A stretch of DNA of 11,525 bases. It comes from Pseudomonadota bacterium (lineage in GTDB: Bacteria; Pseudomonadota; Gammaproteobacteria; Burkholderiales; SG8-39). Of this stretch, positions 1 through 7,777 are shown one piece after another. The stretch is from positions 1 through 11,525 of the forward strand of contig QGUL01000019.1 in the NCBI GenBank assembly GCA_003242425.1, written 5' to 3'. Below the pieces are notes generated by a model that was not told where the DNA came from, did no database searches, and saw only the letters and a program-made list of their open reading frames with translations. The translations under genes were made by a program, and so were the position numbers. Every line of letters begins with the position of its first letter. The stretch's first letter is position 1.

Positions 1-917
1 CGCGGGAGGGACGAACCCGTCTTTGGGTTTTTCCTTTTGGGAAGGCCGGCCTTCCCACGGGACAAGGCAAGGTCCGCACGGTCGACGCGCGCACGGCCGA
101 GTTGCTGAAGGAGCCCAAGTTCAACGAGGGCTTCATCTACCTCATGTTCAAGCTGCACGTCGATCTGTTCGCGGGTATGGCGGGCACGCTCTTCCTCGGT
201 TTCATGGGGTTGCTGCTGGTGATCGCGATCGTGTCGGGCGTGGTGCTCTACGCGCCCTTCATGCGCAAGCTGGAGTTCGGCACCGTGCGCCGCAACCAGT
301 CTGCACGGCTGAAATGGCTGGATCTGCACAACCTGCTCGGCATCGTGACGCTCGCCTGGCTGTTCGTGGTCGGGCTCACCGGCGTGATCAACACGCTGGC
401 GCAGCCCCTCACCGCGCTGTGGCGTTTCGATCAGGTGAGCGAAATGATCGCGCCCTACCAGGGGCAGCCGCCCGTCACCGAGCCCGGCTCGCTCGATGCG
501 GCGGTGCGCGCGGCGCAGGCGCTGGAACCGGACATGCACGTCAGCTTCGTCGCCTTTCCCGGCACCAACTTCGCGAGCCCCTACCACTACGGGGTCTTCA
601 TGCGCGGCAACGAGCCGCTCACTGCCCGTCTGTTCAAGCCCGTGCTCGTCGATGCGCGCACCGCGGAAGTGACCGACAGCCGCGAACTGCCGTGGTACAT
701 CACCACCCTGCTCATCTCGCAGCCGCTGCATTTCGGCGATTACGGCGGCACGCCGATGCAAATCCTCTGGGCCCTGCTCGATCTCATGAGCATTGTCGTG
801 TTGTGGAGCGGGCTGGTGCTGTGGTGGCGTCGCCGCAGACAGCCGCTGGAAGCCATCGCGCGCGAAGCCGAGGCCGAAATCGAATCCGGGCTCGTGACGG
901 CGAAGGAGTCGATATGA
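1..917 (+). CDS. PepSY-TM inner-membrane protein, probable siderophore reductase (5' end outside window)
   Basis: This is a PepSY-associated transmembrane protein, the family of FoxB/PiuB, which reduces or handles ferric siderophores at the inner membrane. The frame is open from base 3 with no stop, giving 304 residues in the window, so the start lies upstream; a TTG at 102 is only an internal codon. Residues ahead of it (LWVF...VRTVDARTAELL) look like the end of a periplasmic PepSY domain. Three membrane segments follow: about 210-285, 340-400 and 760-830 in bases. Conserved histidines stand in FKLHVDLFAG and WLDLHNLLG, the positions expected for heme ligands in FoxB-like proteins, and a QPLHFGDYGG motif precedes the last helix. 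Family members have four helices, so the first is missing here. The stop overlaps the next ATG (ATGA). The receptor gene downstream supports a role in siderophore-iron use. The exact substrate is unknown. Confidence 0.85.
   Translation, partial: REGRTRLWVFPFGKAGLPTGQGKVRTVDARTAELLKEPKFNEGFIYLMFKLHVDLFAGMAGTLFLGFMGLLLVIAIVSGVVLYAPFMRKLEFGTVRRNQSARLKWLDLHNLLGIVTLAWLFVVGLTGVINTLAQPLTALWRFDQVSEMIAPYQGQPPVTEPGSLDAAVRAAQALEPDMHVSFVAFPGTNFASPYHYGVFMRGNEPLTARLFKPVLVDARTAEVTDSRELPWYITTLLISQPLHFGDYGGTPMQILWALLDLMSIVVLWSGLVLWWRRRRQPLEAIAREAEAEIESGLVTAKESI
39..56. repeat. Perfect 18-bp palindrome inside the PepSY-TM gene
   Basis: GGGAAGGCCGGCCTTCCC reads the same on both strands. It follows a small hairpin (AACCC 14-18, GGGTT 25-29) and a T-rich run (27-37 region). 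Both lie within the open frame of the PepSY-TM protein, so it is either a constrained coding stretch or a structured RNA or DNA site. Confidence 0.6.
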
Positions 918-1102
918 GCGCGCGCCGCACGCTCAGCGAGGTATACCGCTGGCCCGCCGCCATCGCCCTGGCCAGCCTCGTCGGCCTGTCGAGCGCGCTG
1001 TTCGCCGACGGCTTCTGGGATGCCGTCTCCTGGATCGCGCTCGCCGTTCCCGTCGCGGTCGGATGCTGGAAGTGGTTCAACGCGGGTTCGGGTTCCGCAT
1101 GA
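914..1102 (+). CDS. Small two-helix membrane protein of the siderophore operon
   Basis: This is a 62-residue protein starting at ATG 914, which overlaps the stop of the PepSY-TM gene (ATGA). A good Shine-Dalgarno (GAAGGAG, about 902-908) sits 5 nt upstream, which decides the start. After a short basic N-terminus (MSARRTLSEVYRW), two hydrophobic stretches are visible at about residues 13-31 and 38-53, separated by ADGFWDA. The C-terminus is short and polar. Small proteins of this layout commonly follow PepSY-TM genes in siderophore uptake loci. No function is established; a partner or stabiliser of the reductase is an inference from gene order. The overlap implies translational coupling. Confidence 0.75.
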   Translation: MSARRTLSEVYRWPAAIALASLVGLSSALFADGFWDAVSWIALAVPVAVGCWKWFNAGSGSA

Positions 1103-1115
1103 AAGTCTGACAGGT

Positions 1116-1137
1116 GGCGTCCACTATTGCGGACGCC
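1116..1137 (+). terminator. Stem-loop between the small membrane gene and the TonB receptor
   Basis: GGCGTCC (1116-1122) and GGACGCC (1131-1137) form a perfect 7-bp GC-rich stem with an 8-nt loop, followed by GTTTCT. It lies 13 nt past the stop of the small membrane gene and 54 nt before the receptor start. It could be a weak intrinsic terminator or an attenuator that lowers receptor expression relative to the upstream genes. The T-tract is poor, so the role is uncertain. Confidence 0.35.
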
Positions 1138-1191
1138 GTTTCTCCATCCCCGCCAGCCGTCGCCAGCCCCGTACTGCATGAGAGGAGTGCT

Positions 1192-3282
1192 ATGCAAAAG
1201 CACGGCTGGCGGCTACGGCCGCTCATCTTCGCATGCCTGCTGGCCTATGCCGGCGCCGGCATGACACAGGACGCGACACAACTGCCCACCGTCGAAGTGA
1301 AGGCGGAGGCGGCGACCGAATCGGCGACCGGCCCGGTCGGCGGCTACGCCGCCACACGCAGCGCCACCGCCACCAAGACCGACACGCCGCTCGTCGAAAC
1401 GCCGGCATCGATTTCCATCGTCACGCGCGAGCGCATCGAGGACCAGGGCGCCACGTCTCTGCAGGACGCGCTCAACTACGCGGCAGGCGTGCGCTCGGAC
1501 GCCTACGGCCTCGATTCGCGCACGGACAGCGTGCGCGTGCGGGGCACCTATCCCGCCGAATTCAAGGACGGCCTCGCGCGCCAACTGACCGGGTACTACA
1601 CCAGCAGCACACGCAACGATCCGTTCCTCTTCGAGCGCATCGAGGTGCTGCGCGGTCCCGCGTCCATGCTTTACGGACAAGGCAGCACCGCGGGCATCAT
1701 CAACCTCGTCACCAAGCGGCCGCTGCCCGAAGCGCAGCGCGAAATCGGTGTGCAATACGGCAGCTTCGATCGCAAGCAGCTGCAAATGGATTTCACCGGG
1801 CCGCTGACCGAGGACGGGCAGTTCCTGTATCGCCTGATCGCCGTGGCGCGCGATGCCGACACCCAGGTCGATCATGTGGAGGACGACCGGAAACTGTTCG
1901 CGCCTTCGCTCACCTGGCGCCCGGGTCCCGACACCTCCCTGACACTGCAGGCGCTCTGGCAGGACGACCACAGCGGCTCCACCTCGCAGTTCTTCCCGTG
2001 GCGCGGCGTCCGCCTGCCTAACCCGAACGGCAGCATTCCGCTCGACCGCTTCATCGGCGAGCCGGGATTCGATCGCTACGACTCCGAGCGCAAGGAAATC
2101 GGCTGGCTGTTCGAACACCGTCTGAACGGCGACTGGACGGTGCGGCAGCACACGCGTTATGCGCACAACCGGGTCGAGTACCGCACCCTCTACGCGGACT
2201 CTTTCAGCAATCCGGACGATCCGTTCATCGATCCCGACGATCGCGTCATGAACCGCTGGGCCTTCCTGGAAGACCGGACCACGAAAGTGCTCGCCACCGA
2301 CCAGCATCTGGTGGGGAAGTTCCGCACCGGCGCCGTACAGCATCAATTACTGCTCGGATTCGATTACGCGAGTCACCACAGCGAGGCCGAAAGCGGCGGC
2401 GGATTCGGTTTTCCGATCGACATCTACGCCCCGGTGTACGGCAACTTCGTCGAGCCTGCGATGGCCGACGGTCCTTACTCGAGGATGCGCCACGCGGGCG
2501 TTTACGTGCAGGACCAACTCAGGTTCGGCCGCTGGATTCTCACCGCGGGGCTGCGCCACGACCGCGTCACGAGCAAGGCGGAGGGTCAGGACGAGGAGAA
2601 GGACCGCGCCACGACGCGGCGCGCCGCGGTGATGTACAGGTTCGACGGCGGGATCGCGCCCTACGTGAGCTATACGGAATCGTTCACGCCCGTGGCGGGC
2701 GTCAATGCGGCGGGCAGACACTACAAGCCGCTTGAGGGCGAGCAGGTGGAAATCGGCATCAAGTTCGAACCGCCCGGCCGGCGCATGATGTACAACCTCG
2801 CGTTCTACGAGCTGAAGGAAAGCAATCAGCTCGTTGCCGATCCCCTCAATCCCGGCAGTTCGCTGCAGACGGGCGAAATCGTCAATCGCGGCTTCGAGGC
2901 GGAAGCGATCGGACGGCTGCTGCCGTGGCTCGACATCGCGGCGCACTACAACTACATCGACATCGACCCCACGCTCGAGGCGATACCGAAGCATCAGGCC
3001 GCGGTGTGGGCGCAAAGCCGCTTCTCCATCGGCGATCGTCCCGGCTTCCTCGCGGGCCTGGGCGTGCGCTACTTCAGCGCCTTCACCGACAGCGCCGCGC
3101 CGAGGACGCCGAGCGTCACGCTCTACGACGCCATGATCGGCTATCAGCACGGTCCGTGGCACTACGCGCTCAACGTGCAGAACATCGAGGACGAGAAATA
3201 CGTGTCCACCTGCCTCGGTCGCGGCGACTGCTGGTTCGGCGCGCGGCGCACCGCCGTGCTGACGGCCAGCTATCGTTTCTGA
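1192..3282 (+). CDS. TonB-dependent ferric-siderophore outer-membrane receptor (FhuA/FoxA type)
   Basis: The chosen start is ATG 1192 because AGAGGAG (1181-1187) lies 4 nt upstream and a signal peptide follows at once (MQKHGWRLRPLIFACLLAYA, then AGAGMTQ). An in-frame GTG at 1114 would add 26 residues without a good ribosome site. The product has 696 residues, a usual length for siderophore receptors. A TonB box-like segment (LPTVEVKAE, 31-39) precedes the plug domain at about 65-190, with TPASISIVTRE, FERIEVLRGPASMLYGQGS and GIINLVTKRP, typical of the TIGR01783 siderophore-receptor family. A 22-strand barrel follows, ending in a terminal Phe (ASYRF). The end, with a Cys pair (STCLGRGDCWFGARR), resembles FhuA/FoxA hydroxamate-siderophore receptors. 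It imports a ferric siderophore across the outer membrane using TonB-ExbBD energy. The actual ligand cannot be read from sequence. No Fur box is visible just upstream, so control probably acts at a promoter outside the window. Confidence 0.93.
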   Translation: MQKHGWRLRPLIFACLLAYAGAGMTQDATQLPTVEVKAEAATESATGPVGGYAATRSATATKTDTPLVETPASISIVTRERIEDQGATSLQDALNYAAGVRSDAYGLDSRTDSVRVRGTYPAEFKDGLARQLTGYYTSSTRNDPFLFERIEVLRGPASMLYGQGSTAGIINLVTKRPLPEAQREIGVQYGSFDRKQLQMDFTGPLTEDGQFLYRLIAVARDADTQVDHVEDDRKLFAPSLTWRPGPDTSLTLQALWQDDHSGSTSQFFPWRGVRLPNPNGSIPLDRFIGEPGFDRYDSERKEIGWLFEHRLNGDWTVRQHTRYAHNRVEYRTLYADSFSNPDDPFIDPDDRVMNRWAFLEDRTTKVLATDQHLVGKFRTGAVQHQLLLGFDYASHHSEAESGGGFGFPIDIYAPVYGNFVEPAMADGPYSRMRHAGVYVQDQLRFGRWILTAGLRHDRVTSKAEGQDEEKDRATTRRAAVMYRFDGGIAPYVSYTESFTPVAGVNAAGRHYKPLEGEQVEIGIKFEPPGRRMMYNLAFYELKESNQLVADPLNPGSSLQTGEIVNRGFEAEAIGRLLPWLDIAAHYNYIDIDPTLEAIPKHQAAVWAQSRFSIGDRPGFLAGLGVRYFSAFTDSAAPRTPSVTLYDAMIGYQHGPWHYALNVQNIEDEKYVSTCLGRGDCWFGARRTAVLTASYRF

Positions 3283-5178: not shown

Positions 5179-5628
5179 TTGTCGCCGCGCTGGTTCGTTT
5201 TCCTGCTCAATTTCTGGCCGCCCTTCCGTTGCGCGGGTATCCGCGTGCGGCGCATTTCCCCGGACTGGCGCGAGATCGACGTAGAGTTGCGGATGGGGCT
5301 GCTCAACCGCAACTACATGGGCTCGCATTTCGGCGGATCGCTGTTCTCCATGACCGATCCGTTCTTCTGGCTGATCGTGTCGCGCGCCCTGGGCCGCGAT
5401 TACGTCGTCTCGCACAAAGGCGGCCGAATCGAGTTCCTCAAGCCGGGTTACGGTGTGGTGAGGGCGCACTTCGCCGTGAGTGACGACGCGCTGGAAAGCA
5501 TTCGCGCGCGTACGGCCAACGGCGAGCGCGATCTGCCCGAGTTCAGCACCGAAATCGTCGATGAAGCCGGCGTGGTGATCGCCCGCGCCACGCAGATCCT
5601 GCACGTCCGCCGCAGAACAGCGGCCTAG
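5179..5628 (+). CDS. DUF4442 hotdog-fold (thioesterase-like) protein, start codon uncertain
   Basis: The product is at least 149 residues and matches the DUF4442 family, which has a hotdog fold like acyl-CoA thioesterases. Typical stretches are AGIRVRRISPDWREIDVEL, LLNRNYMGSHFGGSLFSMTDPF, LGRDYVV and GRIEFLKPGYG. The first canonical start is TTG 5179. However, the frame is open back to the ugpB stop (TAG 5137-5139, same frame), and the residues before the TTG (VRFLDG) continue the family-like N-terminus. A strong Shine-Dalgarno GGGAGGA (5147-5153) is placed for a start at 5161, where the codon is GTC, not GTG. CTG 5170 is another option. It is probably co-transcribed with ugpB. A cytoplasmic thioesterase or acyl-binding role is inferred from the fold; the substrate is unknown. 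Its stop shares CTAG with the opposing exporter gene. Confidence 0.82.
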   Translation: MSPRWFVFLLNFWPPFRCAGIRVRRISPDWREIDVELRMGLLNRNYMGSHFGGSLFSMTDPFFWLIVSRALGRDYVVSHKGGRIEFLKPGYGVVRAHFAVSDDALESIRARTANGERDLPEFSTEIVDEAGVVIARATQILHVRRRTAA

Positions 5629-6197
5629 GCGAAATCGAAGCCGAGCAGCACCGCGAGGCCGAGCGCGGCGAACAGCGCGGCAGCGGCATAGCGGACCAGT
5701 TTGAACGGGATTTTCTTCGCGGCCTTGTCGGCGAGGAACACCACCGGCGCATTGGCGCACAGCATGCCGAGGGTGGTGCCGCCAACGACAGCGGCGAGCG
5801 ACTCGTACCTGGCGGCGAGCGCGACAGTGGCGAGCTGCGTCTTGTCGCCGATCTCGGCGAGGAAGAAAGCCACCAGGCTGCACATGAACACGCCGTAGGT
5901 GCCCATCCTGCAGGCTGCGTCGTCCTCATCGAGCTTGTCCGGCTTGATCGCCCAGGCGGCGATGCCGAGGAAGGAGGCGCCCAGTCCCCAGCGCAAGGTC
6001 TCCGGTTCGAGCATCTCCCGGATCCAGTTGCCGGCCAGCCCGGCAATGGCATGATTGGCGAGGGTTGCGACCAGGATGCCGAGCACGATCGGCACCGCCT
6101 TGCGGAAGCGGGTGGCGAGGATGAAGGCGAGCAGTTGAGTTTTGTCGCCGATCTCGCCGATGGTGACGGCGAGGGTGGAGACGAAAAAAGCTTCCAT
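5625..6197 (-). CDS. TMEM165/GDT1 (UPF0016) family cation exporter, probably Mn2+
   Basis: This 190-residue membrane protein has the two family signatures, EIGDKT at residues 15-20 and again at 115-120, exactly 100 residues apart in two homologous three-helix halves. These motifs form the cation path in UPF0016/GDT1 proteins, which export Mn2+ (bacterial MneA) or exchange Ca2+/Mn2+ for protons. A charged loop (KPDKLDEDDAA, about 85-95) divides the halves. The start ATG 6197 is chosen because the helix with the first motif follows at once; an in-frame ATG at 6248 lies inside the riboswitch aptamer and is not a plausible start. The leader carries a yybP-ykoY manganese riboswitch, which strongly supports Mn2+ as the substrate. 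The stop overlaps the opposing DUF4442 stop by 4 nt. It lies 203 nt downstream of the phosphomannomutase gene on the same strand and probably has its own promoter. Confidence 0.92.
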   Translation of the reverse strand: MEAFFVSTLAVTIGEIGDKTQLLAFILATRFRKAVPIVLGILVATLANHAIAGLAGNWIREMLEPETLRWGLGASFLGIAAWAIKPDKLDEDDAACRMGTYGVFMCSLVAFFLAEIGDKTQLATVALAARYESLAAVVGGTTLGMLCANAPVVFLADKAAKKIPFKLVRYAAAALFAALGLAVLLGFDFA

Positions 6198-6245
6198 GCG
6201 TCCGGATCGAAACAACGGTCTCGCCGTGCTCAATGCCGAACGCAC
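6198..6245 (-). promoter_or_regulatory. Proposed RBS-sequestering helix of the riboswitch expression platform
   Basis: GTGCGTTCGG in the 3' part of the aptamer (6245-6236) can pair over 10 bp (8 Watson-Crick, 2 G-U) with CCGGACGCAT (6205-6196), which covers the only Shine-Dalgarno-like GGA and the AT of the start codon. The same aptamer bases are needed for the middle stem and the three-way core, so the two folds exclude each other. That fits a translational switch that is off without Mn2+ and on with it. The pairing is seen in the sequence; the mechanism is inferred. Confidence 0.55.
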
Positions 6246-6315
6246 CATGGCCGCGCGGCCAGACTTGTTGATGCGCTCTCCCCGCCGAAGCGGGGCGGCT
6301 ACTCCCCGTGAACCG
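6205..6315 (-). promoter_or_regulatory. yybP-ykoY manganese riboswitch in the exporter leader
   Basis: Read on the minus strand, the leader contains GGGGAGTAGC (6307-6298), a stem CCCCGC-TTCG-GCGGGG (6295-6280), ATCAACA (6272-6266), a stem TGGCC-GCGC-GGCCA (6261-6248), and GGCGAGACCG ending near 6216. GGGGAGUAGC, AUCAACA and GCGAGACC, in this order and spacing, are the conserved parts of the yybP-ykoY (Mn2+-sensing) aptamer. CGCATC (6275-6270) and GGTGCG (6246-6241) can close the middle stem, and ACGG/CCGT gives a short P1. The aptamer ends about 10 nt before the ribosome-binding region of a UPF0016 exporter, a classic target of this riboswitch. No covariance search could be run; the call rests on motif recognition and context. 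Confidence 0.9.
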
Positions 6316-6320
6316 GCGCG

Positions 6321-6326
6321 ATTTTA
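6321..6326 (-). promoter_or_regulatory. Possible -10 element of the riboswitch/exporter promoter
   Basis: TAAAAT on the minus strand (5 of 6 matches to TATAAT) lies 6-10 nt before the aptamer's 5' end, where transcription should begin if the leader is independently transcribed. It is one of the few AT-rich spots in the gap. No good -35 was found at 16-18 nt upstream. Confidence 0.4.
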
Positions 6327-6352
6327 ACCCCGCCCGGAGGCCCCGAACGGCG

Positions 6353-6386
6353 AACCGGGCGCGGATCGCTTCATTCGTGCCCGGTT
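6353..6386 (-). terminator. Stem-loop downstream of the phosphomannomutase gene
   Basis: AACCGGGC and GCCCGGTT form a perfect 8-bp stem with an 18-nt loop, starting 14 nt past the mutase stop. The position suits the end of the long minus-strand operon, but no T-tract follows on that strand. The T-rich run (TCATTTTTTATT) lies on the other side of the stem and would serve plus-strand transcripts. It may be a Rho-dependent or stabilising structure. Confidence 0.35.
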
Positions 6387-6400
6387 TCGCTCATTTTTTA

Positions 6401-7777
6401 TTAAAAAGGCAGTTCCACGTCCGGCTTCAGCGCCAGCAACAGACGGCGGAAATCCTCCTGGATGCGCTTGAGACCCGCCTGATCACGGGCTTCGAAGCGC
6501 AGCACGATCACCGGCGTGGTGTTCGAGGCGCGCGCGAGGCCGAAGCCGTCCTCGTATTCCACCCGCAGGCCGTCGATGGTGATGACGTTCGTGGCCTCGG
6601 GGAAATGCGCGCCCGCCTGCAATTGGGCGATGAGGCGGTGCGGTTCGCCCTCGCGCAGCTTGATGTTGAGCTCCGGTGTGGTGACCGAGTCCGGCAGGCT
6701 CTTCAGCGTCGCGTTGGCGTCCTGCTCGCGCGAGAGGATCTCCAGCAGCCGCGCGCCGGCGTAGAGCCCGTCGTCGAACCCGAACCAGCGCTCCTTGAAG
6801 AAGATGTGGCCGCTCATCTCGCCGGCAAGCGGCGCGCCGGTTTCCTTGAGTTTCGCCTTGATGAAGGAATGGCCGGTGCGCCACAGCACCGGCTCGCCGC
6901 CGTGTTTGCGGATCCAGGGCGCGAGATTGGTGGTGCATTTGACGTCGTAGATGATCTGCGCACCGGGTACGCGCGCGAGCACGTCGCGCGCGAACAGCAT
7001 GAGCTGGCGGTCAGCGTAGATGATCTCGCCGTCCTTGGTGACCACGCCCAGCCGGTCGCCGTCGCCGTCGAAGGCGAGGCCCAGCTCGGCGTCGGTCTCG
7101 CGCAGTTGCGCGATCAGATCGCGCAAATTCGCGGGCTGCGACGGATCCGGATGATGGTTCGGGAAAGTGCCGTCCACCTCGCAGTAAAGTTCGCGCACTT
7201 GGCAGCCCATGCGGCGATAGAGCTCCGGCGCGAGGCTCCCCGCCACGCCGTTGCCGCAGTCGACGACGATGGACATCGGCCGCGCGCACTTCACGTCTTC
7301 GGTGATGCGGCGCAGGTAGGCTTCGCGCACGTCTTTTTCGATATAGCGGCCCTCTCCCGCGAGAAAATCGCCGCGCTCGATGCGCTTGCGCACGTCCTGG
7401 ATTTCCTCGCCCGACAGCGTGGTGCCGGCGATGACCATCTTGAGGCCGTTGTACTCGGGCGGATTGTGGCTGCCGGTGACGGCCACGGCGCTGCCGGTGC
7501 CGAGCTCGTGCGCGGCGAAATACACCACCGGTGTCGGCACCATGCCCACATCGTAGACGTCCACGCCCGCGGCGCGGATGCCCTTGGCAAGAGCCGCCAC
7601 GAGCTCCGGTCCCGACAGGCGCCCGTCGCGCCCCACCGCGATGGCGCTGCCGCCGCGTTCGCGGCACAGCGTGCCGAGCGCCCGGCCGACCAGTTCCACC
7701 ACCGGCGGCGTGAGCGTCTTGCCGACGATGCCGCGGATGTCGTAGGCCTTGAAGATTTCCTGCGGTACTTGGTTCAT
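6401..7777 (-). CDS. algC: Phosphomannomutase/phosphoglucomutase (AlgC/ManB type)
   Basis: This is a 458-residue alpha-D-phosphohexomutase, close to the 463 residues of Pseudomonas AlgC. It interconverts mannose-6-P and mannose-1-P, and usually glucose-6-P and glucose-1-P, feeding GDP-mannose and UDP-glucose synthesis for LPS, exopolysaccharide or glycogen. All four family motifs are intact: the phosphoserine loop TGSHNP (Ser103), the Mg2+ loop DGDGDR (237-242), the sugar-specificity loop GEMSGH (319-324) and the phosphate-binding RASNTTP (416-422). GEMSGH is the form found in dual-specificity PMM/PGM enzymes. The start ATG 7777 lies 2 nt after the stop of the yheT-like gene, so translation is probably coupled; the Shine-Dalgarno is weak. 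It is the last gene of the compact minus-strand run. Confidence 0.95.
   Translation of the reverse strand: MNQVPQEIFKAYDIRGIVGKTLTPPVVELVGRALGTLCRERGGSAIAVGRDGRLSGPELVAALAKGIRAAGVDVYDVGMVPTPVVYFAAHELGTGSAVAVTGSHNPPEYNGLKMVIAGTTLSGEEIQDVRKRIERGDFLAGEGRYIEKDVREAYLRRITEDVKCARPMSIVVDCGNGVAGSLAPELYRRMGCQVRELYCEVDGTFPNHHPDPSQPANLRDLIAQLRETDAELGLAFDGDGDRLGVVTKDGEIIYADRQLMLFARDVLARVPGAQIIYDVKCTTNLAPWIRKHGGEPVLWRTGHSFIKAKLKETGAPLAGEMSGHIFFKERWFGFDDGLYAGARLLEILSREQDANATLKSLPDSVTTPELNIKLREGEPHRLIAQLQAGAHFPEATNVITIDGLRVEYEDGFGLARASNTTPVIVLRFEARDQAGLKRIQEDFRRLLLALKPDVELPF

Follow-up and report, generated by a model that had tools for sequence, protein, structure and literature searches.

The window analysed in this study (the whole stretch of 11,525 nucleotides) carries on its minus strand a gene of the GDT1/UPF0016 family and, immediately ahead of it, a leader in which a yybP-ykoY (RF00080) Mn2+ riboswitch aptamer can be recognised from its sequence with near certainty (Table 1). 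The protein encoded by the gene matches PF01169 with 141.1 bits in two stretches, giving two matches in the genome search as a two-repeat protein, and its translation contains EIGDKT twice, which conforms to the E-x-G-D-(R/K)-(S/T) motif described for UPF0016 in a review (PMC7380456). The first-pass annotation of this DNA had placed the gene in the UPF0016/TMEM165 class, and this assignment holds. No other GDT1 gene was found in the same genome (2.42 Mb, 533 contigs), and by analogy with characterised members the protein is predicted to export Mn2+; a comparison of solved structures with the GDT1 protein by sequence, at an E value of 0.001, returned no match. The gene converges with a DUF4442 gene on the plus strand (5179–5628), the two stop codons overlapping in one CTAG at 5625–5628.

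Table 1. Features of the riboswitch leader and the gene that follows it (window coordinates).
Feature	Position	Strand	Basis or remark
Putative -10 box TAAAAT	6321..6326	-	13 nt before L1
yybP-ykoY aptamer	6205..6316	-	RF00080 46.5/44.5 bits; window-free model R1 66.5 bits
L1 motif GGGGAGUAGC	6298..6307	-	pattern scan and sequence
P2 hairpin CCCCGC-UUCG-GCGGGG	6280..6295	-	fold
P3, stem of 10 pairs	6238..6278 (6278-6269 with 6247-6238)	-	fold; family covariation
L3 UCAACA	6271-6266	-	pattern scan; within the P3 span, UCA belonging to P3
P3.1 UGGCC-GCGC-GGCCA	6261-6248	-	fold
Conserved 3' motif GGCGAGACC (3' strands of P1.2 and P1.1)	6217..6225	-	pattern scan and sequence
Predicted alternative hairpin, 22 bp, two bulged C	6196..6245	-	minimum free energy fold
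Weak Shine-Dalgarno-like GGA	6201..6203	-	sequence; unpaired probability 0.00 in the free fold
GDT1/UPF0016 gene, 190 aa, predicted Mn2+ exporter	5625..6197	-	ATG at 6197

The start codon at 6197 is established by homology, since all 76 named GDT1 relatives, which we take to be mostly Betaproteobacteria (their class membership being in part assumed), align from the residue encoded there; the host itself is thus probably a betaproteobacterium. The same position had been proposed earlier on the strength of the riboswitch; the position was correct, but it is homology and not the RNA that decides it. An in-frame ATG at 6248 was rejected as the start, as it lies inside the aptamer at the junction of P3.1 and P3 and the same 76 of 76 relatives align from 6197. 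The further suggestion, that the riboswitch gives an otherwise generic transporter its substrate, brings little that is new: published sources already report both Mn2+ transport by UPF0016 proteins and their control by yybP-ykoY (PMC7380456, PMC13274385).

RF00080 was the best Rfam match to the leader, though only borderline against the family's cut-off of 45 bits. It scored 46.5 bits (E 1.2e-11) when positions 6150–6420 were searched alone and 44.5 bits, just below the cut-off, when the whole window was searched with relaxed reporting, and a whole-window scan at the gathering threshold gave no match to the family. The comparison with RF00080 that the first-pass annotation had put forward as a check was therefore favourable in the shorter segment and fell short over the full length. 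Termite-leu, isrB, istR and MIMT1_1 were weak Rfam matches within 6150–6420, far under their own cut-offs, and were rejected. As the RF00080 score was borderline, a covariance model (R1) was built from the aptamers of 21 relatives, with the window left out, to settle the identity; the consensus fold of this alignment shows changes on both sides at 21 of its 32 pairs. R1 matched the window at 6316–6205 with 66.5 bits (E 2.2e-15, 96 sources searched), and this was the only match that it reported in the window's own genome (E 1.8e-14).

The internal evidence agrees with this identification. The window has a single copy of the combined spaced motif pattern and 200 shuffles have none, which with the R1 E value of 2e-15 rules out a chance motif match, and the window retains 27 of the 29 columns that are at least 95% conserved among 60 relatives, of which 50 have lost none, six have lost one, three have lost two and one has lost four (a count that omits 13 R1 matches below 60 bits). 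In the family structure, 95.3% of cells pair across 73 distinct aligned sequences, a share that falls to 37–39% when the partners are slid by one column, and all five measures of pairing exceed those of all 500 shuffles, statistics that lean towards this structure because the alignment was fitted to it. What the first-pass annotation had described is thereby borne out: the motifs of the Mn2+ aptamer lie on the minus strand in the order and spacing claimed (GGGGAGTAGC at 6307–6298, then TCAACA and GGCGAGACC), its extent of 6205–6315 fits the R1 match almost exactly, and its well-formed stems, one with a UUCG loop, correspond to P2, P3 and P3.1. These three helices and inner P1 are present with standard pairs throughout, and the claim of a Mn2+ riboswitch ahead of an exporter of the UPF0016/TMEM165 type is supported by sequence and structure together.

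Two parts of the aptamer depart from the family. The four bases that follow UCAACA in the L3 region deviate from the Rfam consensus, and outer P1 has been reworked: the GUCAUU/UUUGAC conserved there in relatives is lost, and four contiguous pairs are possible (6309–6306 with 6218–6215). Outer P1 is the switch helix P1.1, which Mn2+ is reported to stabilise (PMC6754395). Upstream, the putative -10 box lies at a spacing that is characteristic of the family, as 58 of 60 relatives have a TAnnnT 11–15 nt upstream of L1 (26 have it at 13 nt), compared with approximately 6% of 1200 shuffles, whilst a simple generic scan for sigma-70 pairs gave no full promoter at the leader. Transcription probably starts at the aptamer or a few bases upstream of it, so that the leader would be around 115–120 nt long, a length that follows from the position of the -10 box.

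The pairing of this riboswitch with GDT1 is ordinary and already known, and the window is a further member. R1 matched at 54 of the 76 named GDT1 loci (14 of the 54 being rows of R1 itself) and at six of 29 other GDT1 loci of the same family (three of these six being rows of R1), with no R1 match at the five most similar family orthologues (L100–L104). According to a review, a UPF0016 member was under yybP-ykoY in 328 of 333 screened strains (PMC7380456), and Vibrio mneA is likewise described as being under yybP-ykoY (PMC13274385); in such systems the aptamer core, the gene family and the gene order are all like those of the window. The proportion of family loci with R1 (six of the 29 at L100–L128) is far below the 328 of 333 given in the review (PMC7380456), which suggests frequent loss of the riboswitch within this family.

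Where the window differs from the yybP-ykoY-GDT1 systems of its order is in the expression platform. In a survey of 220 genomes of the order, R1 gave 83 matches in 77 genomes, and the distance between the end of the R1 match and the first GDT1 codon was 56–191 nt (median 64 nt) in the 63 other riboswitch-GDT1 pairs, with the window excluded. In the window, GDT1 starts 7 nt past the modelled RNA, a truncation that the first-pass annotation overlooked. Nineteen R1 matches in the order have no GDT1 start within 400 nt. An alignment of 18 relatives from the aptamer through the gene shows that their platform holds a covarying hairpin that re-uses the 3' strand of P1 (UUUGACC with GGUCA), and in 43 of the 48 relatives with a platform of 70–100 nt this P1-competing hairpin was at least equal in strength to all but 2 of 100 shuffles. 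The platform of about 60 nt with such a hairpin, which is usual in the order, is absent from the window, and a gap of 7 nt leaves no room for it. For the middle of the platform paired with the region before the start, at least the same level was reached in only 19 of the 48 relatives, and so nothing is claimed from this pairing.

What may stand in the place of this platform is suggested by the minimum free energy fold of the window's leader. The predicted 22-bp hairpin joins the 3' strands of P3, P4 and P1 to the GGA and to the A and U of the start codon, so that this hairpin and the aptamer fold would be mutually exclusive. Pairing of the P3/P4 strand with the start region has a predicted duplex energy of -22.5 kcal/mol, which was reached by 4 of 3000 shuffles. 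Measured by run length the complementarity is weaker, with the 10 consecutive pairs reached by 437 of 20,000 shuffles and the Watson-Crick-only run of five by 7331 of 20,000. The mean unpaired probability at -12 to +12 is 0.23, below that of all 46 relatives that gave a value (two of the 48 gave none); the AUG alone is equally occluded in three of these 46.

When the aptamer was imposed on the fold, the mean unpaired probability at -12 to +12 climbed to 0.44, a gain exceeded by only one of the 18 leaders compared. Under the constraint of the full aptamer, the unpaired probabilities are 0.09, 0.01 and 0.56 for the three bases of the GGA and 0.83, 0.11 and 0.01 for those of the AUG, the release of the start being only partial in the model because the coding sequence re-pairs with both. 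The cost of the aptamer fold over the free ensemble is 9.5 kcal/mol, which lies within the 4.9–30.2 kcal/mol of 17 relatives (two of them lower) and is therefore not unusual. For transcripts ending at 6214–6199 the cost is 1.6–3.0 kcal/mol, rising to 5.3 kcal/mol once the AUG has been made, and this low cost before the AUG and higher cost after it suggest a co-transcriptional decision, in which Mn2+ bound during the last 15 nt of synthesis would keep the aptamer and the start would otherwise be captured. No congener in which covariation of the hairpin could be followed was present among 97 other family genomes, and the start-masking switch is a fold prediction made on one metagenome-like assembly.

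We lean, if only slightly, towards a translational ON switch in which the strands of the aptamer themselves act as the expression platform. Without Mn2+, the leader would fold so that the 3' strands of P3, P4 and P1, drawn into a long hairpin, cover the GGA and the AUG, keeping translation off. Mn2+ bound between L1 and L3 would hold P3 and P1 in the aptamer form, leaving the start region more accessible and allowing the exporter to be made. The DNA itself shows the aptamer and the gene, the 7-nt gap between them and the complementarity of the start region; the two folds would be alternatives predicted for this RNA, and the ON direction is that of characterised members. Counting against this reading are the partial release of the start, the weaker run-length signal, the three relatives with an equally occluded AUG, a leader that folds only 1.84 standard deviations better than shuffles, the reworked P1, the four changed bases in L3, the borderline RF00080 score and the dependence on one assembly. 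A more specific form of this reading is put forward tentatively, as possible and somewhat doubtful: that this may be a minimal switch with no separate platform, whose anti-Shine-Dalgarno and anti-AUG sequence would be supplied directly by the 3' strands of P3, P4 and P1, so that the metal would bind and the start be released in a single refolding, settled over some 15 nt of transcription.

It is plausible that a compact leader using the aptamer strands as its own platform is a new variant. Among the titles listed for yybP-ykoY papers on the expression platform and on start codon sequestration, none concerns such a leader, a scope of titles that stops short of establishing its absence from print. 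If the reading is correct, the window would hold a short and purely translational Mn2+ switch with its sensor and output on common strands, would show how an aptamer's strands can take the place of a lost expression platform, and would offer a handy compact Mn2+ sensor for laboratory use.

A useful comparison is the betaproteobacterial leader of B. pertussis BP3410. It is a yybP-ykoY leader with an upstream -10 box that is reported to respond to Mn and to control a Mn exporter, but transcription is reported to stop inside this riboswitch without Mn (PMC8546581), whereas the window is read as translational. The E. coli mntP riboswitch belongs to the same family and is described as translational, with its ribosome binding site inaccessible without Mn; its 5' UTR is given as 229 nt (PMC11647493), in contrast to the 115–120 nt or so suggested for the window by the -10 box, and its exporter is of a different family from the window's GDT1.

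These systems bear on an alternative that we consider unlikely, in which the window holds an ordinary yybP-ykoY switch, the start-masking hairpin is a by-product of a GC-rich leader, and Mn2+ acts via P1 on Rho-dependent termination or mRNA decay. The modest folding advantage of the GC-rich leader over shuffles (1.84 standard deviations) speaks for it, but the energy of the start-region duplex was matched by only 4 of 3000 shuffles, and the start region is more occluded than in 46 of 46 relatives. The reported stop within the B. pertussis leader without Mn favours transcriptional control (PMC8546581), as does the reported action of Rho on E. coli mntP (PMC11647493); against this, the sole terminator-like site in 6100–6500 is on the plus strand (6352–6387), and an intrinsic terminator was rejected as the platform on the same grounds.

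The missing platform could also be a sign of decay, with an aptamer that no longer regulates and a gene that is constitutively low or read from elsewhere. The loss of two of 29 conserved columns, the four changed bases in L3 and the five most similar family orthologues without an R1 match would all fit such a history, yet the other 27 columns are kept, L1, UCAACA and GGCGAGACC are intact, the -10 box stands at its conserved spacing and the aptamer fold costs less than in 15 of 17 relatives, and we regard decay as rather improbable. That approximately 57 nt were lost in assembly or sequencing from a leader that is in truth ordinary appears very improbable. The sequence comes from a single source, a fragmented genome of 533 contigs with a completeness of 90.74 and a contamination of 4.83, which leaves room for an error of this kind; however, the arms of the hairpin pair through G-U and bulged bases, unlike those of a simple fold-back chimera, which makes a fold-back artefact unlikely, and a chance loss would hardly bring a P3-complementary start codon to this place.

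A second, weaker yybP-ykoY-like leader was observed elsewhere in the same genome (contig C496, L002 1501–1665), with 32.5 bits for RF00080 and 34.6 bits for R1, ahead of a TerC gene (PF03741, 165.5 bits); cmscan with its filters on did not report this leader. Together with four other weak R1 matches (L015, L016, L017 and L019), it has common departures from the conserved columns, seven in each of the four and eight in L002, and an L3 of GUCA type that appears shorter than UCAACAUACUU. TerC genes follow L002 and, by eye, L015, and on the strength of these genes and the common departures the five may form a coherent TerC-linked subtype.

On the plus strand of the window, a terminator-like hairpin of 15 pairs with a T-rich tail (6352–6387) lies between a phosphoglucomutase/phosphomannomutase gene and the riboswitch promoter and points into the end of the former. 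At the other end of the window (3–3282, plus strand), a PepSY-type membrane protein adjoins a TonB-dependent receptor, and the two are possibly a metal-siderophore uptake pair.
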